Assembly: GCF_006716745.1 (NCBI RefSeq)
Contig: NZ_VFPP01000001.1
Location: 2,542,001 to 2,606,000 of the forward strand
Origin: Saccharothrix saharensis
GTDB lineage: Bacteria; Actinomycetota; Actinomycetes; Mycobacteriales; Pseudonocardiaceae
DNA length: 64,000 bases
Reading direction: 5' to 3'
Part shown: in pieces, positions 9,932-28,958 of the stretch
How the letters are laid out: every line of letters starts with the position of its first letter
How positions within the stretch are numbered: position 1 is the stretch's first letter
Notes under the pieces: generated by a model
The model's input: the letters and a program-made list of their open reading frames with translations, nothing else
What the model was told of the DNA's origin: nothing
The model's database searches: none
Position numbers and translations under genes: made by a program

Positions 9932-9933
9932 GC

Positions 9934-9960: not shown

Positions 9961-10106
9961 ACCCCTGGATGGCCCACCTGACCCTTGTTCCGTTCGGGTG
10001 AACCGAGCGATGTCCTCCTAACGGGGGATGGAGTCCAACCGATCAAGGAAAGGACGGCGTTCTCGCGTGAGCGGCCCGCACAGCCGCGGTGCGGTCGGGA
10101 GGTGCG

Positions 10107-11625: not shown

Positions 11626-12915
11626 GTGAGCCTCGCGTCCCGAACGACCGGTTACTTCACCACGCCGCAGCACGAGCGGTTGCGCGCCGAGGTGCGCGCG
11701 TTCGCCGAGGCGGAGGTCGCGCCCGCGGTGGCGGGCATGGAGGAGTCCAAGGCCGTCCACACCGAGCTGTCCCGACTGATCGCGCGCCAGGGCTGGCTCG
11801 GCGTCACCGTCGACCCGGAGTACGGCGGCCTGGGCCTGGGCCACCTGGCCAAGACCATCATCATCGAGGAGCTGTCCCGCGTCAGCGGCGCGATGGGCGC
11901 GATGGTGCAGGCGTCCCAGCTCGGTGTCGCGAAGATCGTGCACTTCGGCAACGAGGAGCAGAAGCGGCACTGGTTGCCCCGGGTCGGCGACGGCCGGTGC
12001 CTGCCGACCATCGCGGTGACCGAGCCGGACGCGGGCGGGCACGTGCTCGGCATGTCCAGCACGGCGGAACGGGTCGGCGACGAGTACGTGCTCAACGGGC
12101 GCAAGGTGTTCGTGGGCAACAGCCACGTCGGCGACCTGCACGGGGTGGTGGTCCGCACCGGGCCCGGTTCCGGTGGGCTGTCCGCGTTCCTGGTGGAGTC
12201 GACCGCGCCGGGCTTCTCGCTCGCGCCGCACCGGCCCGCCATGGGCCTGCACGGCTTCAGCTTCGGCGAGCTGGTCTTCGAGGACTGCCGGGTGCCCGCG
12301 GCGAACCTGCTGGGCGCCGAGGGGGACGGCCTCGCCGTCGCGTACTCGTCCAGCGTCCTGTACGGGCGCCCCAACCTGACCGCGGTGTCGCTCGGCATCC
12401 ACCGCGCGATCGTGGAGCAGACCGTCGAGTTCGCCCGCGCCCACCGGCGGTACGGCAAGCCGCTGGCCGAGCTGCCCACCGTGAAGCAGAAGCTGGGGCA
12501 GATGCAGTCCCAGCTCATGACCGCGCGCCTGGCCGCCTACTACGCCGCGCACCAGCTCGACCAGGGCGCGCCGTGCGACGCGGACCTGATCAGCGCCAAG
12601 CTGCTCAACGTCGAGTCCTCTTTGGACTCGGCACGCACGGCGATGGAGATCCACGCCGCGTACGGGCTCGACCCCGGCCGCACGGTCGAGCGCCTGCTGC
12701 GCGACGCGAACCACATCTACTCCCCCGCCGGCACGTCGGACATCCAGCGGCTGCGACTGGCCGAGGTGGCTCTGGGCACCTACCAGGACCAGTGGTCGGC
12801 GCGGCTGGCCGACAAGCTGCGCGCGAGCAGCGTCGCCCTCGATCGGGTCACGCTCGTGGCGGGCGAGCCGGCGAACCTGCCGCTCGGCGAACCCGCGGTC
12901 GCGGCGGCCCGCTAA
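11626..12915 (+). CDS. Acyl-CoA dehydrogenase-like flavoenzyme
   Basis: 429 residues, the normal length for this FAD family. N-terminal helical domain with YGGLGLGHLAKTIIIEELSRVS, middle beta domain with TEPDAGGHVLGMSSTAERVGDEYVLNGRKVFVGNS (substrate and flavin contacts), and C-terminal domain with RRYGKPLAELPTVKQKLGQMQ. The usual catalytic-base motif Y-E-G-T near the C-terminus is replaced by IYSPAGTSDIQRL, so the glutamate at that site is missing and two residues are inserted; the base may lie elsewhere, as in isovaleryl-CoA dehydrogenases, or the reaction may differ. The GTG at 11626 is preferred to an ATG at 11611 because GGGGGAA is correctly spaced. Possibly acts on a carrier-bound natural-product intermediate; unproven. 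Confidence 0.83.
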   Translation: MSLASRTTGYFTTPQHERLRAEVRAFAEAEVAPAVAGMEESKAVHTELSRLIARQGWLGVTVDPEYGGLGLGHLAKTIIIEELSRVSGAMGAMVQASQLGVAKIVHFGNEEQKRHWLPRVGDGRCLPTIAVTEPDAGGHVLGMSSTAERVGDEYVLNGRKVFVGNSHVGDLHGVVVRTGPGSGGLSAFLVESTAPGFSLAPHRPAMGLHGFSFGELVFEDCRVPAANLLGAEGDGLAVAYSSSVLYGRPNLTAVSLGIHRAIVEQTVEFARAHRRYGKPLAELPTVKQKLGQMQSQLMTARLAAYYAAHQLDQGAPCDADLISAKLLNVESSLDSARTAMEIHAAYGLDPGRTVERLLRDANHIYSPAGTSDIQRLRLAEVALGTYQDQWSARLADKLRASSVALDRVTLVAGEPANLPLGEPAVAAAR

Positions 12916-14546: not shown

Positions 14547-14561
14547 TGATAATGATTACCA
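14547..14561 (+). promoter_or_regulatory. Zur-like (zinc-repressor) operator before the 11-gene operon
   Basis: TGATAATGATTACCA is a 7-1-7 inverted repeat with one mismatched pair (TGATAAT against TGGTAAT). It is one base away from the perfect palindrome TGATAATGATTATCA, the kind of site used by actinobacterial Zur. It does not resemble the TTAGGTTAG-type site of the iron regulators IdeR/DtxR. Its GATAAT could also be the -10 element, so a bound repressor would block the promoter. It lies 43 bases before the ATP-grasp gene start, the AT-richest spot in this intergenic region. Confidence 0.62.
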
Positions 14562-14603
14562 TTCCCTCAGTCCCCGGTCCGACGCCCCTTCGGAGGAGCA
14601 CGC

Positions 14604-15860
14604 GTGGCGCACTTGTTGATGATCGAGAGCTGGGTGGGCGCGATGAGTTCGTTGCTGCCACGGGCGATCCACGAGTCCGGCCACCGGTTCACCTTCCTCA
14701 CCCGGGACCTGCGGCACTACCTGCGCGCCGCGCCCGCGCACCCGCACCCGTTGCTGGCGGCGGACAACGTGCTCACCGCGGAGACCAACGACGTGCCCGC
14801 GCTGCTGTCCTACGCGGAGCGGTTGCACGGCGTGCTGGCGTTCGACGGCGTGATCTCCTCGTGCGACTACTACCTGTCCACGGTCGCCGCCGTCGCCGCC
14901 CACCTCGGCCTGCCCGGACCGGACCCGCTGGCCGTCGAACGCGCCTACCGCAAGGACCTCACGCGCACGACCACCTCGGCGGCGGGCGTGCCCGGTCCCC
15001 GGTTCGCGCTGACCCGGGACTGGCCCGCCACCGCGAAGGCCGCCGCCGAGCTGGGTTACCCGCTGGTGGTCAAGCCGGTCGACCTGTGCGCGGGGATGCA
15101 CGTGCGGGAGGTGCGCGACGAGGCCGCGCTGCGCGAGGCGTACCAGGCGCTGGAAGCGTTCCCGGTCAACGCGCGCGGCCAGGAGCGGGTGCCGACCGTG
15201 CTGCTGGAGGAGCTGCTCGTCGGCCCCGAGGTGAGCGTCGAGACGGTGACGGCGGCCGGGACGACCTACGTGATCGGGGTGACCGACAAGAGCCTGGCCG
15301 GGCGGCCGTGGTTCGTGGAGAGCGGCCACATGTTCCCGGCGGCGTTGAGCGATGCCGACCGCGGCGCGGCCGTGGACACCGCCGTGAGCGCGATCGAAGC
15401 GCTGGGCCTGGACCACGCCGTCGCGCACACCGAGGTCAAGCTGACCGCCGACGGCCCCCGCCTGATCGAGGTCAACCCGCGCCCGGCGGGCAACCGGATC
15501 ACCGAGCTGGTCCGCCGGGTGACCGGGATCGACCTGCCTTCGGTGTTCGCCGACCTCGCCGTGGGCCGTCAGCCGGACCTGCGCGCCCGGGAGACGGGTG
15601 TGGGCAGTGCCGCCATCTCGTTCCTGCTGCCGCCGCGCGCCGGTGTGGTGGCCGGGATCGACGGCGTCGAGGCCTTGGCCGCCGACCCGGAGGTGGTCGA
15701 CTGGGCCGCCAAGCCCGCGGGCCACCGCGCCGGCGAGCCGACCAGCAACAACAGCTACCTCGGGCACGTCATGGTGACGTCGCCGGACGGTGACGCGCGC
15801 ACCCGCGCCGAGCGGGTCGTCGGCGCGCTGGACGTGCGCTACGCGGAGCCCGTCGCGTGA
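14604..15860 (+). CDS. ATP-grasp ligase (amino-acid / dipeptide ligase type)
   Basis: First gene of the operon; 418 residues. Predicted carboxylate-amine ligase that activates an acid with ATP as acyl phosphate and joins it to an amine, as in BacD or carnosine synthase. ATP-grasp features: lysine in YPLVVKPVDLCAGMHVREV (glycine-rich lid), acidic pair in VLLEELLVGPEVSVE, and the metal site VKLTADGPRLIEVNPRPAGN (E and N ligate Mg2+), followed by the typical DLAVGRQPDL tail. GTG start with GGAGGAG 6 bases upstream. Neighbouring epimerase and PLP enzyme suggest it makes a small peptide from unusual amino acids. Substrates unknown. The gene is translationally linked to what follows. Confidence 0.85.
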   Translation: MAHLLMIESWVGAMSSLLPRAIHESGHRFTFLTRDLRHYLRAAPAHPHPLLAADNVLTAETNDVPALLSYAERLHGVLAFDGVISSCDYYLSTVAAVAAHLGLPGPDPLAVERAYRKDLTRTTTSAAGVPGPRFALTRDWPATAKAAAELGYPLVVKPVDLCAGMHVREVRDEAALREAYQALEAFPVNARGQERVPTVLLEELLVGPEVSVETVTAAGTTYVIGVTDKSLAGRPWFVESGHMFPAALSDADRGAAVDTAVSAIEALGLDHAVAHTEVKLTADGPRLIEVNPRPAGNRITELVRRVTGIDLPSVFADLAVGRQPDLRARETGVGSAAISFLLPPRAGVVAGIDGVEALAADPEVVDWAAKPAGHRAGEPTSNNSYLGHVMVTSPDGDARTRAERVVGALDVRYAEPVA

Positions 15861-15976
15861 CCGCGCGACCGGACCGACCCGCCGCCCCGCCGGACGCGCA
15901 CCACGTGGGACCTGTCGCACCACCGAACCGACCCGCTCGCACGCCGCACCTCCGCCACGCCGGAGGTGGCGCGTGA
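15857..15976 (+). CDS. Possible small His/Pro-rich ORF bridging two operon genes
   Basis: A 39-codon frame opens with GTG inside the stop of the ATP-grasp gene (GTGA) and closes with TGA inside the start of the DUF364 gene (again GTGA). It fills the only sizeable gap in the front part of the operon. The peptide is rich in proline, arginine and histidine (VTARPDRPAAPPDAHHVGPV at its start, five histidines in total). Third-position GC is about 77%, lower than the >90% of neighbours, which argues against strong coding selection. It may simply be a coupling frame keeping ribosomes moving across the gap. Confidence 0.25.
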   Translation: MTARPDRPAAPPDAHHVGPVAPPNRPARTPHLRHAGGGA

Positions 15977-16815
15977 CCGCGCAAGCCGACCGACGCCCCC
16001 TGTCCGGCGTCACGGAGCTCATCGCGCTCGCCCGCGCCGGAGCCATGGGGCCCGACCCGGCCGAGGCGGAGGTCAGCGTCGCCTTCACCACGAGGCAGGG
16101 CGCGCGGCACGTGTCGCGGGGGCGGGCGTACCGCAACACGGTGATCAGCGTCCGCATCGGCGACGCGGTCGGCTCGTGCGCGGTCGAACCCGACGGCGCG
16201 GACGACGCGAGCGTGACCGACTGCGTCGGCGAGAGCGCCGCGGACCTGCTCGGCCACCCCGACCCCGCCATCCGGACCGCCGTGCTGGACGCGTACCTGA
16301 TGCACGCGCACCCGCACCACCTCTCCGCCGCGCGGCACGTCGTGATCGGCGCGGGCGACTCGCTGGCCAAGTCGATGGCCCGCGCGTCGGCCGTGGTCGA
16401 CCTGCTGGACGCCCGGCCGGGGCAGCGGGTGCTGGTCGTCGGGGTGGTGAACTCGCTGCTGCACCACCTGCGCGACCGCGGCCTGCGCTACGTGCCGTGC
16501 GACCTCAAGGGCGGGCGCACCGAGTGGGGCGAGCCGATCGTGACCGACGCGCTCGCCGCCGTCGCCGACTGTGACCTGGTGCTGGCCTCCGGCATGACGG
16601 TCGGCAACGGCAGCTTCGAGCCGCTGCTGCGCACGTCCGTCGCGGCCGACCGGCCGCTGGTGGTGTTCGCCCAGACCGCGAGCGCGATCGTGCCGTGGTT
16701 CCTCGGGTCGGGTGTCACGGCGGTGTCGGCCGAGCCGTTCCCGTTCTTCTGGCTGCACGGCGGCCCGACCACGTTGCACCTCTACCGAGCCTCCCCCACC
16801 GGACGGGCCCGGTGA
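15973..16815 (+). CDS. DUF364/DUF4213 'putative heavy-metal chelation' protein
   Basis: 280 residues with the two-domain layout of the DUF4213-DUF364 family: an N-terminal enolase-N-like part (residues ~5-115, RGRAYRNTVISVRIGDAVGSCAVEP) and a C-terminal Rossmann-like part with RVLVVGVVNSLLHHL, DCDLVLASGMTVGNGSFEPLL and PFPFFWLHGGPTTLHLYR. The family is annotated as possibly metal-chelating and often sits in metal-transport or cofactor loci; its chemistry is unknown. GTG start with GGAGG 6 bases upstream; the stop overlaps the next start. A role in making or handling a metal ligand fits the zinc-type operator and transporters here. Confidence 0.78.
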   Translation: MTAQADRRPLSGVTELIALARAGAMGPDPAEAEVSVAFTTRQGARHVSRGRAYRNTVISVRIGDAVGSCAVEPDGADDASVTDCVGESAADLLGHPDPAIRTAVLDAYLMHAHPHHLSAARHVVIGAGDSLAKSMARASAVVDLLDARPGQRVLVVGVVNSLLHHLRDRGLRYVPCDLKGGRTEWGEPIVTDALAAVADCDLVLASGMTVGNGSFEPLLRTSVAADRPLVVFAQTASAIVPWFLGSGVTAVSAEPFPFFWLHGGPTTLHLYRASPTGRAR

Positions 16816-17885
16816 CCGCGCTGTCCCGAGTGGGCGTCCGCAACCCCCACCTGTTCGACCTGCTCGGCAACACCCCGGTCGCCCGCATCGACACGCCGCT
16901 GCCGCACCGGCACGGCGGGTTCTGGGCGAAGCTGGAGTGCCTGGGCGCGGGCGGGATGAAGGCCCGATCGGCGGTCGCCATGCTGGTGGCCGCGCGGGAA
17001 CGCGGCGAGCTGCGCCCCGGCGCGGTCGTCGTGGAGTCGACCAGCGGCACGCTCGGCCTCGGCCTGGCGTTCGCGGGCCAGGCGCTGGGCCACCCGGTGG
17101 TCCTGGTGGTCGACCACGAGCTGGAGCCGTCGATGCGCGCGTTGCTGCGGGCGCACGGCGCGCGGCTGGAGGTCGTGGACCGGCCGCACCCGACCGGCGG
17201 CTGGCAGCAGGCCAGGCTGGACCGGCTGCACGCCCTGCTGCGCGGGCTGCCCGGCGCGTACTGGCCCGACCAGTACAACAACCCCGACAACCCCGCCGGG
17301 TACGCGGGGCTGGCCCGTGAGCTGGCCGCCCAGCTCGACCACGCCGACGTGCTGGTGTGCAGCGTCGGCACGGGCGGGCACAGCACCGGTGTCGTGACGG
17401 CGCTGCGCCGGCACTGGCCGGACGTGCGGCTCATCGGCGTGGACACGGTCGGCTCGACCATCTTCGGCCAGCCCGCCCGCCCCCGGGTCATGCGCGGGCT
17501 GGGCAGCAGCATCCACCCGCGCAACGTCGCCTACGAGCTGTTCGACGAGGTGCACTGGCTCGGCCCGGTGGAGGTGGTGGACGCGTGCCGCCGGCTGGCG
17601 CGGGACTGCTTCGTCACCGGCGGCTGGAGCACCGGCGCGGTGGCCCTGGTGTCGTCGTGGGTGGCGCGCGTCGAACCGGGCGCGACCGTCGTGACGATCT
17701 TCCCCGACGGCCCGCACCGCTACCTCGGCACGATCTTCGACGACGACTTCTGCCGCTCGCGGGGGCTGTTGGGCACGCCCGAGGACCGACCGGTGGAGAT
17801 CGCCGACACCGCCGAGGTCGAGGTCACCAGCTGGGCCCGGTGCCGCACGGTGCACGCGCCCGAGGCCGTCGGGGTGCCGGCGTGA
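16812..17885 (+). CDS. PLP-dependent cysteine-synthase-like (fold II) enzyme
   Basis: 357-residue fold-type II PLP enzyme related to CysK, cystathionine beta-synthase and SbnA. The Schiff-base lysine is K50 in LECLGAGGMKARSA, and the phosphate-binding loop is GTGGHSTG (residues 186-193). The substrate loop, S-G-N-T-G in true cysteine synthases, reads STSGTLG (76-82), so substrate specificity has changed. Such enzymes replace the leaving group of O-acetyl- or O-phosphoserine with another nucleophile; SbnA makes the precursor of 2,3-diaminopropionate this way. A C-terminal extension of ~50 residues contains a CxxxxxH-type end. Likely supplies a non-standard amino acid to the ATP-grasp ligase. 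Confidence 0.82.
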   Translation: MTALSRVGVRNPHLFDLLGNTPVARIDTPLPHRHGGFWAKLECLGAGGMKARSAVAMLVAARERGELRPGAVVVESTSGTLGLGLAFAGQALGHPVVLVVDHELEPSMRALLRAHGARLEVVDRPHPTGGWQQARLDRLHALLRGLPGAYWPDQYNNPDNPAGYAGLARELAAQLDHADVLVCSVGTGGHSTGVVTALRRHWPDVRLIGVDTVGSTIFGQPARPRVMRGLGSSIHPRNVAYELFDEVHWLGPVEVVDACRRLARDCFVTGGWSTGAVALVSSWVARVEPGATVVTIFPDGPHRYLGTIFDDDFCRSRGLLGTPEDRPVEIADTAEVEVTSWARCRTVHAPEAVGVPA

Positions 17886-18883
17886 AGCTCGACTGGACGG
17901 TGTACGGGCTGCACCTGCGGTCGCCGCTGCGGATCTCGCGGTCGGTGATGGCGCGGCGGGACGCGGTGCGCGTGGTCCTGGAGGCCGACGGGGTCCGCGG
18001 CCACGGCGAGGTCGTGACCAGCCAGTACTACGGGCTGGACGTGGAGCGGATCACCGGGCTGCTGCACGACCTCGCGCCCGTGGTCGCCTCCTGCGCGGAT
18101 CCGGGCGAGCTGCGGGCACTCCTGCCCGAGCTGCCGCCGGGCGTGCTCGCCGCCGTGGACGCCGCGCTGCACGACCTCGAAGCGCTGCGCGCGGGCGTGC
18201 CGGTGCACGCGGCCCTGGGCATTCCGCAGTGGACGGACGTGCCGACGGCGTACACGATCGGCATCGGCTCGGTGCGCGACGCGGCCACCGAAGCCGCCGC
18301 GTTGGCCGCGCGCGGGTTCCGCGTGCTGAAGGTCAAGGTCGGCGCGGAGGACGACGTGGCCCGGGTCGAAGCGGTCCGGGCCGCCGCGCCCGACGCCCGG
18401 CTCGTCCTCGACCCCAACGGCGGCTGGACCGCCGAGCGGGCCGTGCGGGTGGTCGACCGGCTCACCGGTGTCGACGCCTTGGAGCAGCCGATCCCGCCGG
18501 GTCGGTGGGACGAGCTGGCGTGGCTGCGCGAGCGGTGCCCGGTGCCGTTGATCGCGGACGAGGACGCCGCCACGGTCGCCGACGTGCGGGCGCTGGCGGA
18601 CCTGGTCGACGGGGTGAACGTCAAGCTGGCCAAGTGCGGCGGCCTCACCGCGGCGCGCGAGGTCGTCGACGTCGCGCGGGCGTGCGGCCTGGACGTGATG
18701 CTGGGCTGCCTGGTGGCCAGCTCGTTGGGCATCGCGCCCGCCGTGCACCTCACCGGTCACGCGCGGTGGGTCGACCTGGACGGCCACCTGCTGCTGGCCG
18801 ACGACCCGTGGACGGGCATCGGCGGCGAGGACGGCACGCTGCGGCTGACCGGCGTGCCGGGGCTCGGCGTGGTGGCCCGATGA
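17882..18883 (+). CDS. Enolase-superfamily dipeptide-epimerase-like enzyme
   Basis: 333 residues, MR/MLE subgroup of the enolase superfamily, closest in layout to L-Ala-D/L-Glu (dipeptide) epimerases. N-terminal capping domain, then a TIM barrel with catalytic K150-V-K152, metal ligands D177 (LDPNGGW), E201 (LEQPIP) and D226 (IADEDA), and the second catalytic lysine in VNVKLAKCGG (K248/K251). All residues for 1,1-proton transfer are present. In this operon it would invert a stereocentre in a dipeptide made by the ATP-grasp ligase; o-succinylbenzoate synthase or N-acylamino-acid racemase activity are alternatives. Starts within the stop of the PLP enzyme. Confidence 0.85.
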   Translation: MKLDWTVYGLHLRSPLRISRSVMARRDAVRVVLEADGVRGHGEVVTSQYYGLDVERITGLLHDLAPVVASCADPGELRALLPELPPGVLAAVDAALHDLEALRAGVPVHAALGIPQWTDVPTAYTIGIGSVRDAATEAAALAARGFRVLKVKVGAEDDVARVEAVRAAAPDARLVLDPNGGWTAERAVRVVDRLTGVDALEQPIPPGRWDELAWLRERCPVPLIADEDAATVADVRALADLVDGVNVKLAKCGGLTAAREVVDVARACGLDVMLGCLVASSLGIAPAVHLTGHARWVDLDGHLLLADDPWTGIGGEDGTLRLTGVPGLGVVAR

Positions 18884-20061
18884 GGCGCTTCCCGCTGTCG
18901 GTGCGCCTGCTGCTGGTCAACCAGTTCGGCGTGAACACCGGCTTCTACCTGCTCATCCCCTACCTGGCCACGCACCTGGGCGACCTGGGGCTGTCCGTGG
19001 CGACCATCGGCGCGGTCCTGGGCGTGCGGACGTTGAGCCAGCAGGGGCTGTTCCTGTTCGGCGGCACGGCGTCCGACCGGCTCGGGCCGCGCCGGGTCAT
19101 CATCGCGGGCTGCGCGGTCCGGGCCGTCGGGTTCGGCCTGTTCGCGGCGGGCGAGTCGGTGGCGGTCCTGCTGGCCGCGTCCGTCCTCAGCGGGCTGGCG
19201 GGCGCGTTGTTCAACCCGGCCGTGCGCGCCTACATCGCCGAGGAGTCCGAGGACCGGGCCGGCGCGTTCGCGCTGTTCAACGCCTACGGGCAGGCGGGCG
19301 CGCTGGCCGGGCCGCTGCTGGGCGGCCTGCTGCTGCTGTGGGACTTCCGGCTCGCGGCGCTGGTCGCGGCCGGCATCTTCGCCGCGCTCACGGTCGCGCA
19401 GGCCGCGGTGCTGCCCGACCGGCCGGTGGCGCCGCACCGGGGCACGGTGCTGGACGACTGGCGCGAGTGCCTGACCGACCGGCGGTTCCTGGCGTTCACC
19501 GGCGCGTTGACGGGCGTGTTCGTGTTGCAGAACCAGCTCTACCTGGTGCTGCCGCTGGAGGCGCGACGGCTGAGCGGGTCGTCGTTCGCGGTCGCCGCGG
19601 TGTTCCTGGTGTCGACCGCCGCGACCCTGCTGTTCCAGGTGCGCGTGACCCGGGCGCTGGAACGGTTCGCGCGCGGGCGGGCCATCGCGCTCGGCACCGC
19701 GGTGATGGGGCTGGGTTTCGTCGCCACGGCGGTGAGCCACCTGGGGTCGCTCGGCGGCATCGCGCCGGTGCTCGTCGCGACGCTGCTGCTGTCGCTCGGC
19801 GTGATGATCTCGCAGCCGTTCGTCTACGAGTTGATCCCCGCGTTCGGCCGCGCCGGGTTGGCCGGCACCTACTTCGGCGTGTTCTACCTGGCCTCCGGCC
19901 TCGCCGCGGCGCTGGGGAACGCGGCGATCGGCTGGGTGTTCGGCCGGTCGGCCCCGGCCGCGTCGCTGCTGTGCGTGGCGGTCGGGCTCGGCTGCGCGGC
20001 GGCCGTGGCCTGGCTGCACCGGCGTGGCGTGCTGACCGTGAACCGAGAGGTGGCCACATGA
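18880..20061 (+). CDS. MFS transporter, 12-helix (DHA1-like) exporter
   Basis: Major facilitator of 393 residues with twelve predicted helices. The loop 2-3 motif appears as FGGTASDRLGPRRVIIAG, the standard MFS-A G-x3-D-R-x-G-R-R form. ATGA overlap with the upstream epimerase gene and with the downstream methyltransferase gene places it firmly in the operon. It is the only obvious exporter here, so it likely secretes the operon's product. MFS proteins have the same role in several siderophore and EDDS-type zincophore clusters. Confidence 0.87.
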   Translation: MRRFPLSVRLLLVNQFGVNTGFYLLIPYLATHLGDLGLSVATIGAVLGVRTLSQQGLFLFGGTASDRLGPRRVIIAGCAVRAVGFGLFAAGESVAVLLAASVLSGLAGALFNPAVRAYIAEESEDRAGAFALFNAYGQAGALAGPLLGGLLLLWDFRLAALVAAGIFAALTVAQAAVLPDRPVAPHRGTVLDDWRECLTDRRFLAFTGALTGVFVLQNQLYLVLPLEARRLSGSSFAVAAVFLVSTAATLLFQVRVTRALERFARGRAIALGTAVMGLGFVATAVSHLGSLGGIAPVLVATLLLSLGVMISQPFVYELIPAFGRAGLAGTYFGVFYLASGLAAALGNAAIGWVFGRSAPAASLLCVAVGLGCAAAVAWLHRRGVLTVNREVAT

Positions 20062-20852
20062 GCGAGAACCTGCTGACCGACAACCCCGGCCTGTACGAGC
20101 AGCAGTTCCCCGACCCGGACCACGTCGCCGCCCGCTTCACGCACGACGTCGTGACGCGGTTCGGCGGGGGCCGGGCCCTGCTGGACGTCGGCTGCGGCAC
20201 CGGCCGCGACGCCGGTCACCTGGCGAGCCTCGGGTACGACGTGGTCGGCCTGGACAGCTCCGAGCGGATGGTCCGGCACGCCCGCGCGCACCACCCCGCG
20301 GTCGGGTTCGTGCTCGGCGACATGCGGACGTTCGACCTCGGCCGCCGCTTCGACGTGATCACGTGCCTGGACAGCGCGCTGCTGTACTGCCACACGAACG
20401 CCGACCTCACCGCGTTCCTCGACCGCTGCCGCGCACACCTCGAACCCGGTGGACTGCTGGTGGCGGAGATGCGCAACGGCGCGTTCTTCCTCGGCAGCAC
20501 CGAGCTCCTCGACGGCGTCCGCACCCGCACGGTCGTCTGGGAAGGCGTGTCCTACACCTCGCACACCAGGCTCTGGATCGACCACGCGGCCCAACTGCTG
20601 CGCCGCCGGCGCGAGTGGTGGTGGCCCGGCGCGCAGCCGCTCGTGCAGCGCTCGGCGTGGCGGCTGCTGTTCCCGCAGGAACTGCGGCACTTCCTCGACC
20701 ACGCCGGGTTCGACGTGCTCGCCCTGTTCGACTCGCCGGGGCCGCGCACCGAACCCCCCTGGGCACCGGACGAGCCGTGGACGGCCGACGCCGGGTTGAG
20801 CGAGGCCCTGTCCGGAGACCGCCTGCACCTCGTCGCGCGCCTGCGCCCCTGA
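20058..20852 (+). CDS. Class I SAM-dependent methyltransferase
   Basis: 264 residues with a clear SAM-binding core: motif I LLDVGCGTGRDAGHLASLGYDVVGLDSSERM, acidic ribose-binding end of strand 2, and VLGDMRTFDL. The rest of the protein (WW-rich REWWWPGAQPL and a HFLDHAGFDVLALFDSPG motif) fits a small-molecule N- or O-methyltransferase. ATGA overlap with the MFS gene. It probably tailors the peptide-like product made by the preceding enzymes. The acceptor atom cannot be predicted. Confidence 0.83.
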   Translation: MSENLLTDNPGLYEQQFPDPDHVAARFTHDVVTRFGGGRALLDVGCGTGRDAGHLASLGYDVVGLDSSERMVRHARAHHPAVGFVLGDMRTFDLGRRFDVITCLDSALLYCHTNADLTAFLDRCRAHLEPGGLLVAEMRNGAFFLGSTELLDGVRTRTVVWEGVSYTSHTRLWIDHAAQLLRRRREWWWPGAQPLVQRSAWRLLFPQELRHFLDHAGFDVLALFDSPGPRTEPPWAPDEPWTADAGLSEALSGDRLHLVARLRP

Positions 20853-20862
20853 AAGGAACACC

Positions 20863-22398
20863 ATGCACCCCCTCAACCGCCGCGGTTTCCTCGGCCTCAC
20901 CGCCGGCCTCTCGATCGCCGCCCTCACCGGCTGCGGCACGCAGACCCCGACCTCCGCCGCGTCCGCCCCCCGCGACGGCGGACGGCTGCGCGCCGCGTTC
21001 GCGGGCGGCGGGGCCAAGGAGGTGCTGGACCCGCACCTGGCCAACCTGTTCGTGGAGGCCGCCCGGTCCAAGGCGCTGTACGACAAGCTCGCCGACCTCG
21101 GCCCGGACGTCTCCGCCCAGCCCAGACTCGCCGAGAAGTGGGAACCCGACGCCACCCTGACCCGCTGGCGCATCACCCTGCGGCAGGCGACGTTCCACGA
21201 CGGCCGGCCCGTGCGCGCGGAGGACGTGCTGGCCAGCTACGCCCGCATCCTCGACCCGAACCGCGCGTTCCGGGCCAAGTCCAGCCTCGCCGTGATCGAC
21301 CTGGCGAACAGCCGCGCGGTGGACGAGCGGACGGTGGAGTTCGCGCTGCAGCGGCCGTTCGTGGAGTTCCCGAACGTGCTGGCCGCGTTCGGCGCGTACG
21401 TCGTGCCCGCGGGCACCGAGGACTTCACCAGCCCGGTCGGCTCCGGCCCGTTCCGCTTCGTGTCGTTCGAACCCGGCAAGTCGGTGCTGCTCAAGCGGCA
21501 CGGCGAGTACTGGGAGGGGGCGCCGCACCTGGACGAGCTGGAGTTCGTGATCGCCAACGAGGAGTCGGCGCGGACCAACGCGCTGCTCGGCGGCCAGGTC
21601 GAGTACGCGCACGACCTCACGCCGACCACCGCGCGCGGCCACGAGGCCGGCGGCCGGATGGCGATCCACCGCGCGCCCAACAGCGCCGTGCAGGCGTTCG
21701 CGATGAAGCTGGACCGGCCGCCGTTCGACAACCGGGACCTGCGCGAGGCGTTGTTCCTGCTGGCCGACCGGCCGCAGCTGGTCGAGTCGGTGCTCGCGGG
21801 CAGCGGGCAGGTGGGCAACGACCTGTTCGGCAAGGGCTACCAGCACTACGCCGACGACATCCCGCAGCGCACCCGCGACCTGGACAGGGCGAAGTTCCTG
21901 ATCCGCCGGGCGGGCGCGGAAGGCCTGACGGTCAAGCTGGACACCTCCACCGCCGCGGCGGGCATGGTCGAGGCCGCGACGGTGTTCGCCGACCAGGTCA
22001 AGGGCTCGGGACTGACCATCGAGGTGGTCACCGGCAACAAGGACAGCTACTGGTCCGACACGCTCAAGAACGGCTCGCTGTCGAGCTTCCGGTCCGGCGC
22101 GATGCCGATCGAGACCCACGTCGCGCAACGGCTGCTCAGCGGTTCGGGCACCAACGTGACCAAGTGGGCCCGGCCGGAGTTCGACGCCCTGTACGACCGG
22201 GCCGTGTCCACCGTGGACGCCGGGCGGCGCGATGAGGTGTACCGGGAGATGCAGCGCTCCCTGCACGCCGAGGGCGGCTACCTGATGTGGGGCTTCGCGG
22301 ACTGGATCGTGGGCGCGGCCCCGAACGTCGGCGGCATCTCCACCGCGCCCGCGAACACGCTGGACTGGGCGCGGTTCGACAAGGTGTGGTTGGGGTGA
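20863..22398 (+). CDS. ABC importer substrate-binding lipoprotein (SBP_bac_5)
   Basis: Extracellular substrate-binding protein of the oligopeptide / nickel / opine-metallophore family (SBP_bac_5), 511 residues. N-terminus has NRRGFLGL (Tat-like twin arginine) and a lipobox LTGC at about residues 24-27, so it is exported and lipid-anchored. Family blocks include RWRITLRQATFHDGRPVRAEDVLASYARIL and SPVGSGPFRFVSFEPGKSVLLKRHGEYWEG. Good ribosome-binding site AAAGGAA 6 bases before the ATG. First gene of the import half of the operon, separated by just 10 bases from the methyltransferase. It likely captures the metal-loaded product. Confidence 0.87.
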   Translation: MHPLNRRGFLGLTAGLSIAALTGCGTQTPTSAASAPRDGGRLRAAFAGGGAKEVLDPHLANLFVEAARSKALYDKLADLGPDVSAQPRLAEKWEPDATLTRWRITLRQATFHDGRPVRAEDVLASYARILDPNRAFRAKSSLAVIDLANSRAVDERTVEFALQRPFVEFPNVLAAFGAYVVPAGTEDFTSPVGSGPFRFVSFEPGKSVLLKRHGEYWEGAPHLDELEFVIANEESARTNALLGGQVEYAHDLTPTTARGHEAGGRMAIHRAPNSAVQAFAMKLDRPPFDNRDLREALFLLADRPQLVESVLAGSGQVGNDLFGKGYQHYADDIPQRTRDLDRAKFLIRRAGAEGLTVKLDTSTAAAGMVEAATVFADQVKGSGLTIEVVTGNKDSYWSDTLKNGSLSSFRSGAMPIETHVAQRLLSGSGTNVTKWARPEFDALYDRAVSTVDAGRRDEVYREMQRSLHAEGGYLMWGFADWIVGAAPNVGGISTAPANTLDWARFDKVWLG

Positions 22399-23339
22399 GC
22401 CTGCGCCGGTACGCCGCCCGACGGCTGGCCCTGGGCCTGGTCCAGGTGCTCGCCGTCGTCACGGTGGTGTTCCTGCTGGTGCAGGCGCTGCCCGGGGACG
22501 CGGCGGTGGCGCTGGCGGGAGACAACCCGGACCCGAAGCGGATCGAGCAGATCCGGGTCGCGATGGGGCTGGACCGGCCACCGCTGGAGCGGTTCGGCGA
22601 CTGGGTCGCGGGGTTGGCGCGCGGTGACTTCGGCGTGTCGCTGATCTCCGGTCGGCCGGTGGTCGAGTTCCTGCACGACGGGCTGGGGCCCACGCTGGTG
22701 CTGGCGGCGCTCGCCCTGGTGCTGCTGATCCCGTTGTCGGTGCTGCTGGGCGTGCTGGCGGCGTTGCGCGAGGGCGGGCCGCTGGACCGGGCCGTCACGA
22801 CGGTCACCGTGGGCCTGCACTCCATCCCGGAGTTCGCGCTGGCCGTGGTGCTGATCGCGCTGTTCGGGGTGCAGTTGCGGTGGCTGCCGCCCACGGCGGT
22901 GGGCGCGGACCTGCTCGGGCAGCCTGCCGTGCTGGTGCTGCCGCTGGTGGTGCTGGTGGCGCGGCCGCTGTGCTCGATCAGCAGGCTGGTCCGCGCCGGG
23001 ATGATCGACGCGCTGGCGTCGGACCACGTCCGGCACGCGCGGCGGCTCGGCATCGGCGTGACGCGGGTCCGGTTCGCGCACGCGCTGCCGACCGCGCTGG
23101 CGCCCGCCGTGCAGCAGGTGGCGCGGACCACCGACTGGCTGCTGGGCGGCGTGATCGTGGTCGAGGCGGTGTTCGTCATCCCCGGCCTGGGCACGATCCT
23201 GGTGGACGCCGTCGCGGGTCGCGACCTGCCGGTGGTGCAGGGGCTGGCGGTGGTGTTCGCGGTGACCACGGTCGTGGTGAACCTGGTCGCCGACCTGCTG
23301 GTGTTCCGGCTCGCCCCGCGATCGGTGGCGATCGCGTGA
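22395..23339 (+). CDS. ABC importer permease (DppB/NikB type)
   Basis: Membrane subunit, 314 residues, six helices. The N-terminus (RRYAARRLALGLVQVLAVVTVVFLLVQALPGD) is the hallmark of DppB/OppB/NikB. The EAA-like loop is SDHVRHARRLGIGVTRVRFAHALPTALAPAVQQVART, and the end has VFVIPGLGTILVDAVAGRDLPVVQG. It pairs with the next permease. GTGA overlap at both ends. Confidence 0.9.
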   Translation: MSLRRYAARRLALGLVQVLAVVTVVFLLVQALPGDAAVALAGDNPDPKRIEQIRVAMGLDRPPLERFGDWVAGLARGDFGVSLISGRPVVEFLHDGLGPTLVLAALALVLLIPLSVLLGVLAALREGGPLDRAVTTVTVGLHSIPEFALAVVLIALFGVQLRWLPPTAVGADLLGQPAVLVLPLVVLVARPLCSISRLVRAGMIDALASDHVRHARRLGIGVTRVRFAHALPTALAPAVQQVARTTDWLLGGVIVVEAVFVIPGLGTILVDAVAGRDLPVVQGLAVVFAVTTVVVNLVADLLVFRLAPRSVAIA

Positions 23340-24106
23340 GGGGCGTCGGCTGGCTGCTCGTGCTGGTGCCGCTGGCACTGGCGCTGCTGGGGCCGCTGTT
23401 CGTGCCGGACGAGCTGACGCGCGGCGCGCCGTTCGTGGCGAACTCGTCGCTGGGCACCGACTTCGTCGGCCGGGACGTGTGGCACCAGGTGCTCGCGGGC
23501 GGGCAGACCGTGGTGCTGGTCGCGGTGCTGGCCACGGTGGTGTCGTACTCGGCGGGCGTGCCGTGGGGCGTGGTCGCCGCGATGACCCGCCTGCGGGTCG
23601 TGGACGAGGTGCTGATGCGGCCGCTGGACCTGCTCCTGGCCGTGCCGTCGCTGCTGGTGCTGATCCTGGTGGCGGCCATCGCCGGGCCCGGGCTGCCGGT
23701 GCTCGTCGGCGTGGTGGCGCTGGTCAACTTCCCCGACGTGGCGCGGATCTCGCGGGCCGCCGCGCTGGAGATCGCCGGACGTCCGGCGCTGGAGGCGATG
23801 CGGTTGCAGGGCGAGACGTGGTGGCGGACGTCGGTCGTCTACACGGGACGGTCGATGCTGCGGACGCTGGCCGCCGACTCGGGCGTGCGGCTGACCGGCG
23901 CGCTGTACCTGGTCGCGTCGGCCAGCTTCCTCGGCGTCGGCGTCGCGCCGGACGCCGCCGACTGGGCCGTCATGGTCGACCGCAACCGGGTGGGGCTGTT
24001 CCTCCAGCCGTGGGCGGTGGTGGTGCCCGCGCTGCTGATCGTCGCGTTGTCGGTGGGGCTGAACCTGGTGTTCGACCGGGCGTTGCGGGCGGAGGCGCGG
24101 ACGTGA
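23336..24106 (+). CDS. ABC importer permease (DppC/NikC type)
   Basis: Second membrane subunit, 256 residues, slightly shorter than usual (~280) because the cytoplasmic N-terminus is trimmed. The DppC signature SSLGTDFVGRDVWHQVLAGGQTVVLVAVLATVVSYSAGVPWGVVA is followed by the EAA loop (GRPALEAMRLQGETWWRTSVVYTGRSM) and the family motif ASASFLGVGVAPDAADWAVMVDRNR. It forms the pore with the preceding DppB-type permease. Overlaps both neighbours by 4 bases. Confidence 0.9.
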   Translation: MRGVGWLLVLVPLALALLGPLFVPDELTRGAPFVANSSLGTDFVGRDVWHQVLAGGQTVVLVAVLATVVSYSAGVPWGVVAAMTRLRVVDEVLMRPLDLLLAVPSLLVLILVAAIAGPGLPVLVGVVALVNFPDVARISRAAALEIAGRPALEAMRLQGETWWRTSVVYTGRSMLRTLAADSGVRLTGALYLVASASFLGVGVAPDAADWAVMVDRNRVGLFLQPWAVVVPALLIVALSVGLNLVFDRALRAEART

Positions 24107-25575
24107 CGACCGTGGTGCACGTCGAGGACCTGCGCGCGGTCGCCGGGACGCACGCGCTGGTCGACGGCGTCAGCTTCGCGTTGGCCGCCGGGCAGGTGGT
24201 CGCGCTGGTCGGCGCGTCCGGCAGCGGCAAGACCACCACGGGGCTCGCGCTGCTCGGCGAGCACGCGCCGGGCGTGTCGGTGAGCGGGCGGGTCACCGTG
24301 ACCGGCCGGGTCGGGTTCGTGCCGCAGCAGCCGTCGGCGGCGCTGAACCCGGTGCGGCGGCTCGGCGGCGTGTTCCGGGAGATCGCCGCGCTGCACCCCG
24401 GCGACCGCGACGCGCTGATCACGACCGCGCTGCGCCGGGCCCGCGTGCCGGTGGAGCTGCTGCGCCGGTACCCGCACGAGCTGTCCGGCGGTCAGCAGCA
24501 GCGGGTGGTGCTGGCGCAGGCCCTGGTGGGCGACCCGGCCGTGCTGGTCGCCGACGAGCCGACCACCGGGCAGGACCCGATCACCCGGGCCGAGGTGGTG
24601 GACGAGCTGGCGTCGGTCGTGGCGCAGGGCGTGGCGCTGGTGCTGCTCACGCACGACCTGGACGTGGTGCGCGCGTTGGCCGACGAGGTCGTGGTGCTGC
24701 GGTCGGGTCGGGTCGTGGAGGCGGGCCCGGTGGCCGACGTGCTCGACCGGCCGCGGTCGGACTACACCGCCGCGCTGGTCGCGGCACAGCCCCGGGTCAC
24801 CGTGCCCGACGGGCGCCCGGCCGTCGCACCCCGGCTGGAGACGCGGGCGCTGACCGCGCGGCACCGCGCCACGACCGTGCTGCACGACGTGGACGTGCGG
24901 GTGGGCGCGGGCGAGTGCCTGGCCGTCGTGGGCCGGTCCGGGAGCGGCAAGACCACGCTCGCCCGGTGCGTCGCCGGGCTGCACGCCGGGTTCACCGGCG
25001 ACGTGCTGCTCGACGGCCGCCCGCTGCCGCGGTCGTTGCGCCGCCGGTCCCGGTCCGAGCTGGCCGCGGTGCAGTACGTGTTCCAGGACCCCCGCGCGTC
25101 GTTCGACGCCTACCGCACCGTGCTCGACCAGGTCAGCCGTACCGCCGTGCGGCTCGGCGGCGTCACCGACGCGCGTGCGGCGGCGTTGGCGGAGCTGGCG
25201 GCCGTGGGGCTGGACGAGGCGACCGCGACCCGCCGGCCCGCCGCGCTGTCCGGCGGCGAGCTGCAACGCGCCGCGCTGGTGCGCGCCCTGCTGGCCCGGC
25301 CCGACGTGCTGGTGTGCGACGAGATCACGGCCGGGCTGGACACCCTGACCCAGGCGAGCCTGCTCGACCAGCTCGCCGCGCTGACCTGCACCGTGGTGCT
25401 GATCAGCCACGACCTGGCCGTCGTCGCCCGGCTGGCCGACCGCGTCGCCGTGCTGCACCAGGGGCGCGTCGTCGAGCACGGCCCGGCGGGCGACGTCCTG
25501 GGCTCCCCCACCCACCCGGTCACCATCGGCCTGCTGGGCCGCTCGATGGAAGGAACAGAGGAGAAGAAGACATGA
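24103..25575 (+). CDS. Fused double ATPase of the Dpp/Nik-type importer
   Basis: 490-residue protein joining two ABC ATPase domains that are separate (DppD and DppF) in many bacteria. First domain: Walker A GASGSGKTT (37-45), signature LSGGQQQR, Walker B VLVADEPTTGQDP. Second domain (from about residue 245): Walker A GRSGSGKTT, signature LSGGELQRAALVRALL, Walker B VLVCDEITAGLD, switch histidine in LISHDLAVV. It powers the permease pair encoded just upstream. ATGA overlap with the GNAT gene at its 3' end. Confidence 0.9.
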   Translation: MTTVVHVEDLRAVAGTHALVDGVSFALAAGQVVALVGASGSGKTTTGLALLGEHAPGVSVSGRVTVTGRVGFVPQQPSAALNPVRRLGGVFREIAALHPGDRDALITTALRRARVPVELLRRYPHELSGGQQQRVVLAQALVGDPAVLVADEPTTGQDPITRAEVVDELASVVAQGVALVLLTHDLDVVRALADEVVVLRSGRVVEAGPVADVLDRPRSDYTAALVAAQPRVTVPDGRPAVAPRLETRALTARHRATTVLHDVDVRVGAGECLAVVGRSGSGKTTLARCVAGLHAGFTGDVLLDGRPLPRSLRRRSRSELAAVQYVFQDPRASFDAYRTVLDQVSRTAVRLGGVTDARAAALAELAAVGLDEATATRRPAALSGGELQRAALVRALLARPDVLVCDEITAGLDTLTQASLLDQLAALTCTVVLISHDLAVVARLADRVAVLHQGRVVEHGPAGDVLGSPTHPVTIGLLGRSMEGTEEKKT

Positions 25576-26123
25576 CCCCCTACCACCGCGAAGTGGGGCC
25601 GTACGAGGTCCGCCGCGCGCGCGAGTCCGATCTGGACGGTGCCCGCAGCGTCATGCTGGACACGTTCTACCAGGAGTTCGGCTACGGTTACCGGCCCGAG
25701 TGGCACCGGGACGTGGTCGACCTCGAAGGCGCCTACCTGCGTCCCGAGCGGCACGCGTTGTTCGTCGCGGTCAAGGGCGACGAGGTGGTGGCCACCACCG
25801 GCGTGCGCGCCACCGCGCCCGCCAGCCCGCCGCACCCCGCCTGGCTGGCCGCCCGGTACCCCGACGGCGTGACGGCGCAGTTGTTCCGGGTGTACGTGCG
25901 GCCGGACCACCGCCGGGCCGGGTTGGCGCGGGCGCTGGTCGGGATGGCCACCGGATTCGTCGCCGCGACGCCGGGTTACGAACGGCTGTACCTGCACACC
26001 GACACCCGGATCGCCGGGGCCGAGCCGTTCTGGCGGTCCGTGGCGGAGGAGGTGCACGACGCCCGTGACGGCGACCCGATTACCTTCCAGACCGTCCACT
26101 TCGAGATCCCGCTGCCGCGCTGA
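25572..26123 (+). CDS. GNAT-family N-acetyltransferase
   Basis: Last gene of the operon; 183 residues. The acetyl-CoA binding motif is QLFRVYVRPDHRRAGLARALVGMATGFVA (R/Q-x2-G-x-G/A type), in the expected place after strand 4. GNATs acetylate amines; here it could modify the metallophore, supply an acyl-amine precursor, or inactivate product or analogue inside the cell. It starts in the stop of the ATPase gene (ATGA), so it belongs to the operon even though its role is unclear. The stop is followed within 20 bases by a convergent gene. Confidence 0.83.
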   Translation: MTPYHREVGPYEVRRARESDLDGARSVMLDTFYQEFGYGYRPEWHRDVVDLEGAYLRPERHALFVAVKGDEVVATTGVRATAPASPPHPAWLAARYPDGVTAQLFRVYVRPDHRRAGLARALVGMATGFVAATPGYERLYLHTDTRIAGAEPFWRSVAEEVHDARDGDPITFQTVHFEIPLPR

Positions 26124-27081: not shown

Positions 27082-28323
27082 TCACCAGTGCAGGTCCGGC
27101 AGTTCCGCGATCCGGATGAGGTCCGCCTCGGTCAGGAGCGGGCTCGGCCGGGTCGGGCGGTCGGGCCCGGTGCCGTCGTCGGCGCCGTTGGCGGTGTGAA
27201 CGCCGATCCGGCTGCCGTCGGCCGCCTTCGCGTGCAGTGAGAGCCTGGTGAGGCCGCCGGTGGTCAGCGTGTCCAACGCGCCCTGGCGGCCGTTCGACAA
27301 CCCGACCAGCCGGCAGTCCGGGCGGCCGCCGCAGTCCACCTCGCCGCCGTTCGGCTCGTCCACGGTCACCATCACCCAGCCGCGGCCCGCCGCGTCGGCC
27401 AGGTTGGCGACGGCGCGGTAGCCGCCCTGCCGGACGCGGAAGTCCAACGCCTCGCCGGCCGGGGTCGGCTCGACCTCGACGCCGGCCGGCAGGACACCGG
27501 CCAGCACCCGGTCGAGCTCGGCCGCACGGCGGTCCGACGGGGCCGCCGGCACCGGGCGACCCGTCCACCGCACCCGCAGCTGCGGCGCGGTGGCGATGGC
27601 GAGCAGCCCGTCGTCGTCGAAGACCCGGTTCTTCGAGCCCATGCCCCCGGTCTCCATGACGCTGACGTACGTGCCGTCGGAGCGCCACACGTCGGCGGTG
27701 ACCAGGGTCGTGTCCCCCGTCGGCTCGACCGTGAGGCGCGCCGTGGAGCCGTCGGGCAGCGCCCGGACCGAGCACTGCGTCTCCGGCGTGAACCGCACGC
27801 ACTCACCCGGCGGCTGCCCGCCGAGCGGCCGCACGTAGACGATCGCCACCCGGTCGCCGGTGAGGCGGAAGTCGCCGCCCCAGCTCTCGTCGATGGCGCA
27901 CAACCGCAACGGCGTCGCCTCCACCCCCGCCGGCAGGGGCAGCGCGAACCGCCCGAACGCCTCGGTGAGCCGACCGGACTCGGCCAGCTCCTCCGGCGTC
28001 GCGGAGCCACGCGGCAGATCGGGGAAACCACCCGTCATCCGCGATGCCGCGCAACCCTGCGGCGTCGGTGCCGCGGACGACGTCGCGCTCGTCGTGGGCG
28101 TGGTCGAGAGGGCGTCCGCGGCCGGCGCCGACGTCGGCGTGAACGCGCCGCTCACCGTGACCGCGACCACCGCGACGACCCCCGTCGCGGTGGCGGTCAG
28201 CACGCCGAACCTCCGCCGGGCCCGCCGCTTGCGCCCGTCCCGCACGACGCGCTCGAACTCCAGGCCCGACGCGGGCTCGTCCGCCAGCGCCGACCGGATC
28301 ATGTCCCGCACCTCGTCACTCAC
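27082..28323 (-). CDS. Single-pass membrane protein, partner of SigE-family sigma factor
   Basis: 413 residues beginning with GTG inside the stop of the sigma-factor gene. A cytoplasmic N-terminus of ~38 residues (VSDEVRDMIRSALADEP onward) is followed by one transmembrane helix (about 40-60, VLTATATGVVAVVAVTVSGA) and a large extracellular part after a Ser/Thr/Pro/Ala linker. Extracellular cysteines (CAAS, RLCAID, GECV, TQCS, VDCGG, PDCR) may pair. The cotranscription and topology resemble proteins that accompany SigE-family sigma factors in actinomycetes and may act as anti-sigma or sensor, but no zinc-binding anti-sigma (ZAS) motif is visible, so that role is inference. Confidence 0.72.
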   Translation of the reverse strand: MSDEVRDMIRSALADEPASGLEFERVVRDGRKRRARRRFGVLTATATGVVAVVAVTVSGAFTPTSAPAADALSTTPTTSATSSAAPTPQGCAASRMTGGFPDLPRGSATPEELAESGRLTEAFGRFALPLPAGVEATPLRLCAIDESWGGDFRLTGDRVAIVYVRPLGGQPPGECVRFTPETQCSVRALPDGSTARLTVEPTGDTTLVTADVWRSDGTYVSVMETGGMGSKNRVFDDDGLLAIATAPQLRVRWTGRPVPAAPSDRRAAELDRVLAGVLPAGVEVEPTPAGEALDFRVRQGGYRAVANLADAAGRGWVMVTVDEPNGGEVDCGGRPDCRLVGLSNGRQGALDTLTTGGLTRLSLHAKAADGSRIGVHTANGADDGTGPDRPTRPSPLLTEADLIRIAELPDLHW

Positions 28324-28826
28324 GCGCCCTCCCACAGCACGGTCCGCCGGGTCGCCAACGCACGCCGCAGGGTGTCCAGCCCCTTGGACACCTGGCTCTT
28401 CACCGTTCCCTCGCTGCACCCCAGCGCCGCCGCCGTCTCGGCGACCGGCAGGTCCTCCCAGTACCGCAGGACGACCGCGGCGCGCTGCCGGGGCGGCAGC
28501 GCGGCCAACGCGCGCCGCACGTCCATGGCCTCCTCGACCCCGGTCGACACCTCGGCCGGCTCGGGCAAGGACTCGACCACCGTCTCCGGCCGCCGTCCCC
28601 GCCACCGCGACTCGTCGATCACGGCGCGCACCAGCACCTTGCGCACGTACGCGTCGACTCGCCCGTCCCGGTCCAGCCGCCCCCAATGCACGTAGACCTT
28701 GGCCAGCGCGGTCTGCGCCAAGTCCTCGGCCCGGTGCCAGTCACCGCACAACAAGAACGCGGTCCGCCGCACGACGCCCGCCCGTGCCTCGAAGTACGCC
28801 CGGAACTCGCGGTCCCGATCGTGCAC
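28320..28826 (-). CDS. SigE-family ECF RNA polymerase sigma factor
   Basis: 168-residue extracytoplasmic-function sigma factor of the actinobacterial SigE family. Region 2 (FRAYFEARAGVVRRTAFLLCGDWHRAEDLAQTALAKVYVHW) and region 4 (LAALPPRQRAAVVLRYWEDLPVAETAAALGCSEGTVKSQVSKGLDTLRRAL) are complete. The GTG at 28826 is chosen because GGAGG lies 6-7 bases upstream; the frame extends to 28850 with no ribosome site. It is cotranscribed with the overlapping membrane protein gene, its likely regulator. Confidence 0.9.
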   Translation of the reverse strand: MHDRDREFRAYFEARAGVVRRTAFLLCGDWHRAEDLAQTALAKVYVHWGRLDRDGRVDAYVRKVLVRAVIDESRWRGRRPETVVESLPEPAEVSTGVEEAMDVRRALAALPPRQRAAVVLRYWEDLPVAETAAALGCSEGTVKSQVSKGLDTLRRALATRRTVLWEGA

Positions 28827-28854
28827 GTGACACCTCCTCCACTCGGTCACCCCC

Positions 28855-28882
28855 TATACGGCGGCGGCCCGGGTCCCGTTGC
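28855..28882 (-). promoter_or_regulatory. Candidate autoregulated promoter of the SigE-family gene
   Basis: Reading the minus strand, GCAACG (28877-28882) is followed after 16 bases by CGTATA (28855-28860), then AGGGGG and the gene ~30 bases later. A GCAAC / CGT-type pair is the kind of bipartite site an ECF sigma factor could use at its own promoter. Based on one site only. Confidence 0.35.
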
Positions 28883-28901
28883 CCGTAACTTTGCGTGACG
28901 A

Positions 28902-28933
28902 AGGGCCCGTGCGCCCCCGAGCGCACGGGCCCT
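28902..28933 (-). terminator. Hairpin terminator after the ABC permease gene
   Basis: Perfect 13-bp stem (AGGGCCCGTGCGC with GCGCACGGGCCCT) and a 6-base loop, 26 bases past the permease stop and upstream of the sigma-factor promoter. GC-rich, with only TTCGTC after the stem. Confidence 0.65.
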
Positions 28934-28958
28934 GCCCCCTCGGTCCCGACCGAGCGGC

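Follow-up and report, generated by a model that had tools for sequence, protein, structure and literature searches.

A conserved actinomycete operon behind a Zur-like box: a candidate system for making, exporting and reclaiming a small zinc chelator

The operon and its gene families

An operon of eleven genes in Saccharothrix saharensis lies on one strand at positions 14604-26123 (+) of the window, the 64,000-nucleotide stretch analysed here (2542001-2606000 of the 8.92-Mb source genome, a single contig). The nearest named relatives of the locus belong to Saccharothrix, with up to 94% identity in gene 1. A first-pass annotation, made from the DNA letters, had described eleven same-strand genes of particular families behind a box resembling the binding site of Zur; open reading frame and family scans of the window confirmed the genes, their positions and their families (Table 1). 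The annotation had also noted 4-base start/stop overlaps at nearly all gene junctions, and these are exact at eight of the ten. The exceptions are the junction of genes 1 and 2 (+112 with a start at 15973, although an upstream GTG at 15790 might also serve as the start of gene 2) and that of genes 6 and 7 (+10).

Table 1. Features of the operon in the window, with family scores. PLP, pyridoxal phosphate; MFS, major facilitator superfamily; SAM, S-adenosylmethionine; aa, amino acids.
Feature	Positions	Strand	Remarks
Zur-like box TGATAATGATTACCA	14547-14561	+	57 nt upstream of gene 1
Gene 1, ATP-grasp L-amino-acid-ligase-like enzyme, 418 aa	14604-15860	+	ATP-grasp_4 70 bits, LAL_C2 64 bits
Gene 2, DUF364 protein, 280 aa	15973-16815	+	PF04016 36 bits (cut-off 23)
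Gene 3, SbnA/cysteine-synthase-like PLP enzyme, 357 aa	16812-17885	+	PALP 187 bits; TIGR03945 254 bits (cut-off 350)
Gene 4, enolase-superfamily dipeptide-epimerase-like enzyme, 333 aa	17882-18883	+	MR_MLE_C 141 bits; DgcA 252 bits (cut-off 400)
Gene 5, MFS exporter-like transporter, 393 aa	18880-20061	+	MFS_1 126 bits; MdtH-like 146 bits, below cut-off
Gene 6, SAM-dependent class I methyltransferase (probable N-), 264 aa	20058-20852	+	Methyltransf_25 70 bits
Gene 7, SBP_bac_5 solute-binding protein, 511 aa	20863-22398	+	SBP_bac_5 233 bits
Gene 8, ABC permease, 314 aa	22395-23339	+	BPD_transp_1 93 bits; Pfam scan alone
Gene 9, ABC permease, 256 aa	23336-24106	+	BPD_transp_1 62 bits; nickel permease Opp2C 125 bits, below cut-off
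Gene 10, two fused ABC ATPase domains, 490 aa	24103-25575	+	ABC_tran, two stretches, 165 bits
Gene 11, GNAT acetyltransferase, 183 aa, accessory	25572-26123	+	Acetyltransf_1 43 bits

Residue conservation was read from alignments of the window proteins with their orthologues (78 to 81 rows per gene). Lys50 of gene 3, which alignment to SbnA identifies as the PLP lysine, is conserved in at least 98% of 80 rows, and the solved structures near this enzyme are cystathionine beta-synthases and SbnA (5D84-5D87 among the best); SbnA (TIGR03945) is also the NCBIfam model that fits it best. The same degree of conservation, again in 80 rows, was found in gene 4 for K150, K152, D177, E201, D226, K248, D298 and D300. 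We take the first six to be the acid-base and metal positions of the enolases, and D298-L-D300 is presumably the DxD that holds the free amine of the dipeptide in epimerases of this family. The best solved match of gene 4 is 3IJI, labelled muconate cycloisomerase (168 bits), and the best match labelled dipeptide epimerase is 3RIT (130 bits); its best NCBIfam models are the N-acetyl-D-Glu racemase DgcA and the L-Ala-D/L-Glu epimerase, and its counterparts on two plasmids carry the annotation 'dipeptide epimerase'. The L-amino acid ligases BL00235 (94 bits) and BacD are the nearest solved relatives of gene 1. These ligases and the dipeptide epimerases are related to genes 1 and 4 but remote.

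The nearest solved relatives of gene 6 include amino-sugar N-methyltransferases. Gene 7 resembles solved family-5 binding proteins, among them nickel, opine and peptide binders, and its Cys24, present in at least 98% of 78 rows, suggests that it is probably a lipoprotein. Of the NCBIfam models, NikD, CntF and CntD fit gene 10 best, every one below its cut-off, and no NCBIfam model was returned for genes 2 and 11. Gene 2 exceeds the gathering cut-off of PF04016 and has the two-domain fold of DUF364 proteins: its AlphaFold model (pLDDT 92.7) found 3L5O (Dhaf4260) and 3NPG, both DUF364, as the best Foldseek matches. The superposition on 3L5O (TM 0.58 by query and 0.65 by target, rmsd 5.4-5.9, identity 16%) indicates a shared fold, with gene 2 in a distinct conserved group. 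A non-ribosomal peptide synthetase (NRPS), an NRPS-independent siderophore (NIS) synthetase of the IucA/IucC type, CntL and CntM or another opine dehydrogenase are all absent from the eleven genes by Pfam and NCBIfam, as the first-pass annotation had correctly stated for the NRPS, NIS and opine enzymes; the genome beyond the operon was not surveyed for such a partner.

Conservation of the operon and of the box ahead of it

The ligase of gene 1 was used to scan 84,980 species genomes of the GTDB, which yielded 269 confirmed stretches. The best 80 were examined; the other 189 may be more remote. Ten genes, from the ligase (gene 1) to the ATPase (gene 10), constitute the core, with the GNAT (gene 11) outside it, and these ten occur in identical order and on the same strand at 76 of the 80 loci. 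The loci belong to five families (Pseudonocardiaceae, Micromonosporaceae, Streptosporangiaceae, Frankiaceae and Streptomycetaceae) and to the genera Saccharothrix, Lentzea, Actinokineospora, Streptoalloteichus, Saccharopolyspora, Micromonospora/Verrucosispora, Actinoplanes, Nonomuraea, Planomonospora, Frankia, Streptomyces and Embleya, one further locus being labelled Nocardia. Among the four deviating loci, that of Micromonospora andamanensis (L107, 14197-17060) lacks the methyltransferase, so its product may be unmethylated. The copy in Nonomuraea roseoviolacea (L116, 12033-12614) lacks genes 4-8, and the beginning of its PLP gene continues directly into the second permease; L141 contains 201 N and lacks genes 8-10, and L143 ends early, cut by the end of its contig. 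The methyltransferase, assigned to the pathway in the first-pass annotation, is accordingly a member in nearly all copies but not in every one.

A search of 59 further genomes, taken as relatives, found a close PLP orthologue (at least 80% identity) in 17, and all of these carry the eleven genes in order. The core also occurs in order on plasmids, one from Rhodococcus sp. ZPP, which adds Nocardiaceae as a sixth family (51-64% identity per protein), and one from Streptomyces angustmyceticus (55-72%); both were read whole, and three more plasmid records were read around genes 1-4. On the Rhodococcus plasmid the operon is followed on the same strand by a small hypothetical gene and a DUF1490 gene (L171, 25212-25959). 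In an even sample of 119 genomes from across the phylum, the source genome alone matched a DUF364 profile, so that the system is patchy and a wide spread over the phylum was set aside. Where it occurs, the genes for synthesis, export and import are conserved jointly, as in a metallophore operon, and the linkage of enzymes with transporters, which the first-pass annotation had proposed to check in relatives, holds as one unit across families with the box nearly always ahead.

The Zur motif published for S. coelicolor is tGaNNatSatNNtCa (PMC5472717; publications are cited here from excerpts of their text). The box TGATAATGATTACCA differs from it by one mismatch, at position 13. Among the matches listed for the 8.92-Mb genome it is the only exact match to TGNNAATGATTNNCA, and with up to one mismatch to this pattern the whole genome gave nine strand-hits versus one for a reversed-pattern control. 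The window by itself is unremarkable: with up to two mismatches it has three hits, two of them one site on both strands, compared with a shuffled mean of 0.93, and three hits were attained in 11 of 100 shuffles. The case for the box rests instead on its conservation ahead of the operon. All 17 relatives with the operon have a box with up to two mismatches to TGNNAATGATTNNCA about 32-62 nt before gene 1, and one of them (L038) has an additional box at -89. At the GTDB loci a box with up to two mismatches to TGANAAYSRTTNTCA was found within the 250 nt ahead of gene 1 in 76 of 78 cases (L120 and L125, with less than 200 nt of upstream DNA, were left out), whereas the same pattern occurred in 17 of 1600 random windows and in 50 of 1173 stretches preceding other genes. 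The distance to gene 1 is 30-125 nt for 75 of the 76 boxes, the remaining one being at -203, and a site with one mismatch precedes all five plasmid copies. Because the rows are related, these counts are not independent events; several families are covered nonetheless. The box predicted in the first-pass annotation is hence an almost constant companion of the operon, as expected of a Zur-regulated gene set, with the action of Zur itself a prediction.

Boxes of this type elsewhere lend support to zinc as the metal, since some of them precede metal-importer genes. The source genome has five one-mismatch sites, including that of the operon (10 strand-hits; control 2), and two of the five separate the gene of an AztC-like metal-ABC binding protein (TIGR03772, 597 bits) from divergently oriented genes for choice-of-anchor M surface proteins. 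The same genome contains four Fur-family genes, one of them immediately following a gene that by eye resembles ArsR genes, which we take to be the arrangement expected of a zur locus. The genome of S. cyaneochromogenes has 18 sites at no more than one mismatch, compared with six for the reversed-pattern control. Eleven of the 18 were inspected (L185, L187, L189, L192, L194 and the sites at 8973012 and 10413709 were left out). Two boxes precede one ZnuA gene and one precedes a second ZnuA gene; another lies before the operon, another before an unlinked GNAT gene that is followed by an SBP_bac_5 gene, and another before a different SBP_bac_5 gene. A pair of Zur boxes has likewise been reported for znuA of S. 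coelicolor (PMC5472717). The two SBP_bac_5 genes of S. cyaneochromogenes behind Zur-like boxes (L195, 2-1444, and L165, 2080-3549, the latter behind the GNAT) possibly encode importers of the same or of other zincophores.

The GNAT was surveyed in ten genomes chosen from the 80 loci. It is present in seven: beside the operon in three (directly downstream in the genomes of L101 and L105, divergent and adjoining in that of L137) and unlinked in four, on another contig or 0.8 Mb away; it was not found in the remaining three. All four unlinked GNAT genes have a Zur-like box within 135 nt. Measured against a somewhat relaxed pattern, these boxes have 0, 1, 2 and 2 mismatches; the relaxed pattern matched 56 of 1173 control regions with up to two mismatches, the control regions being 260 nt long and the scanned GNAT regions 560 nt. 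The linkage of the GNAT varies and the zinc-type box is constant in the cases seen. The first-pass annotation had placed the GNAT among the tailoring enzymes of the pathway. A role as core enzyme was set aside on account of its patchy and often unlinked occurrence, although the four unlinked copies have a Zur-like box.

Related two-gene units

Among the places with a match to the PLP enzyme of gene 3, 35 were examined with long flanks. Ten loci are two-gene units in which a PLP enzyme 55-63% identical to gene 3 is accompanied by an MFS transporter 39-47% identical to gene 5. In the PLP tree the operon enzymes form one clade (100/99) that is sister to the enzymes of the two-gene units (97/95), and both groups stand apart from PLP enzymes encoded beside ATP-grasp or lyase genes, a third, long-branched group. 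The two-gene unit may represent a chelator-making enzyme with its own exporter. In two loci (L043 and L047) the DNA just upstream of the PLP gene could, by eye, encode a short peptide with Cys-Val-Leu-Arg, perhaps a leader peptide. The source genome itself encodes a second SbnA-like PLP enzyme, fused to an ATP-grasp domain in a protein of 758 aa (L051, source genome 8638500-8658000, at 9350-11626); its neighbours, a lyase, a GntG-like aldolase and NRPS genes, mark it as a separate cluster.

A match to the PLP enzyme occurs in 103 plasmid records, from which six annotated two-gene units were inspected; a further record, L182, carries no annotation. In four of the six (L173, L174, L179 and L181, PLP gene at about 6001-7017) genes for copper or other heavy metals lie within 6 kb, namely those for CopC, a metal-sensitive regulator, a P-type ATPase, a CDF protein and a copper-binding protein. 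Two of these four regions are not independent, because they have neighbours in common, and the other two of the six units have no heavy-metal genes nearby.

A proposed zincophore pathway and its alternatives

The operon is real and well conserved. Its gene content, together with the box, makes it probable, with some room for doubt, that it is a Zur-repressed system by which a small zinc-binding molecule, a zincophore, is made, exported and recovered. The product is best read as a small zinc chelator of the aminopolycarboxylate or dipeptide type, and the following sequence of events can be envisaged. When zinc falls, Zur would leave the box and the operon would be transcribed. The SbnA-like PLP enzyme would join the amine of an amino acid to an activated serine (O-phospho- or O-acetylserine) to give an aminopolycarboxylate, which the ATP-grasp ligase would couple to another amino acid. 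The enolase would then epimerise one residue of the free-amine dipeptide, and the methyltransferase would N-methylate the product in most producers. The MFS transporter would export the product and the SBP_bac_5 ABC importer would return the metal complex. The DUF364 protein would either complete the ligand or release the metal after uptake, and the accessory GNAT would perhaps tailor or inactivate the recovered ligand. There is a precedent for the carriage of metal complexes of an aminopolycarboxylate by a family-5 binding protein: NikA, of the same family as gene 7, binds the Zn, Ni and Co complexes of the polycarboxylic metallophore aspergillomarasmine A (excerpts of PMC11091072).

Several observations weigh against this reading. 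No listed NCBIfam model reached its curated cut-off for genes 1, 3-7, 9 and 10 (among the best 25 models for genes 3 and 10), and homology therefore does not give the exact functions. NikA contacts the metal complex through His416, a residue not conserved in gene 7, whose ligand or binding mode is thus unlike that of NikA; a NikA-like coordination of the metal was set aside. Two of the 78 loci, L101 with three mismatches and L102 with four, have no recognisable box. Nor is a box of this type always tied to zinc: two of the five one-mismatch sites in the source genome have no evident zinc link, and none was seen at five further inspected sites of S. cyaneochromogenes. In view of these five sites, the seven uninspected ones and the control count of six, single boxes are weak evidence. 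The box ahead of one unlinked GNAT (L162) is ambiguous and may belong to another regulator, because this gene stands behind a Fur-family gene and adjoins a catalase-peroxidase-like gene. Finally, no Zur-like box was found from 700 nt upstream to 60 nt inside the gene in nine of the ten two-gene units, the match in the tenth lying inside the gene, and the idea that these units belong to the same Zur-controlled system was set aside for lack of the box.

Among known systems, the opine-like zincophore clusters (cnt; staphylopine, bacillopaline) combine biosynthesis, an MFS exporter and an Opp-type importer in one cluster (excerpts of PMC7438024). The operon has this plan in common with them, down to CntF and CntD among its best, if below cut-off, ATPase models, but it lacks the nicotianamine-synthase-like CntL and the opine dehydrogenase CntM, and its enzymes differ throughout. 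SbnA, which serves staphyloferrin B by way of 2,3-diaminopropionate, is of the same PLP family as gene 3; gene 3, however, does not reach the cut-off of the SbnA family (TIGR03945), and the operon has neither an SbnB partner nor a NIS synthetase. Ethylenediamine-disuccinate (EDDS) of Amycolatopsis japonicum is an actinomycete product under Zur control and thought to arise by neither NRPS nor NIS (excerpts of PMC4993170 and PMC6103462); the comparison was made by description, not by genes. The operon might be a form of this known aminopolycarboxylate pathway with added tailoring, its chemistry then being familiar, and it does have an SbnA-like PLP enzyme and an MFS transporter; the first-pass annotation ascribes a cysteine-synthase-like enzyme and an MFS exporter to the EDDS genes as well. 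We consider this unlikely. No record titled Amycolatopsis is among the best 80 of the 269 loci, and an ATP-grasp ligase and a dipeptide epimerase have no evident place in the formation of EDDS, which contains no amide bond; the two enzymes would suggest a ligand of the peptide type.

A chelator for another metal (Ni, Co, Cu or Fe), with the box read by another Fur-family protein, would suit the resemblance of the ABC proteins to nickel and opine importers, the four Fur-family genes of the source genome and the copper genes that adjoin two-gene units on some plasmids. The like boxes before ZnuA genes in a Streptomyces with the operon, and the single mismatch that separates the box from the published Zur motif (PMC5472717), speak for zinc and render this explanation very improbable. 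Even less can be said for an antibiotic or antimetabolite peptide that is released under zinc starvation, the importer serving recapture or self-protection. L-amino-acid ligases do make dipeptide antibiotics elsewhere, and BL00235 and BacD are the relatives in question. Yet the importer genes stand together with the enzymes at 76 of 80 loci, zinc-type boxes fit metal recovery better, and family scans revealed no resistance-type gene among the eleven apart from the MFS transporter.

A broader form of the zincophore reading is put forward tentatively, its chances being a little short of even. The operon may encode the first representative of a new class of zincophores, aminopolycarboxylate pseudo-dipeptides that are ligated by an ATP-grasp enzyme, epimerised and usually N-methylated; the SbnA-like PLP enzyme and the MFS transporter may form a portable core for chelator synthesis and export that plasmid metal-resistance regions have also acquired by itself; and DUF364 may here obtain its first defined role, in ligand maturation or metal release. 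No description of the operon was found in the open-access literature searched, and most subscription papers and preprints lie outside that search. Rules for aminopolycarboxylate and opine-like metallophores are included in antiSMASH 7 (excerpts of PMC10320115). If the zincophore reading is correct, many actinomycetes make a zinc chelator without the enzymes (NRPS, NIS, opine) that commonly serve to identify metallophore clusters, and the operon offers a defined pathway in which a role of DUF364 can be found. The product would then be directly accessible, with one operon, one predicted trigger (zinc depletion) and one expected export step.

Downstream of the operon the opposite strand of the window (28323-33004) encodes a sigma-70-like factor, an ABC-2 transporter with its ATPase and a two-component system, which are unrelated to the operon as far as seen.

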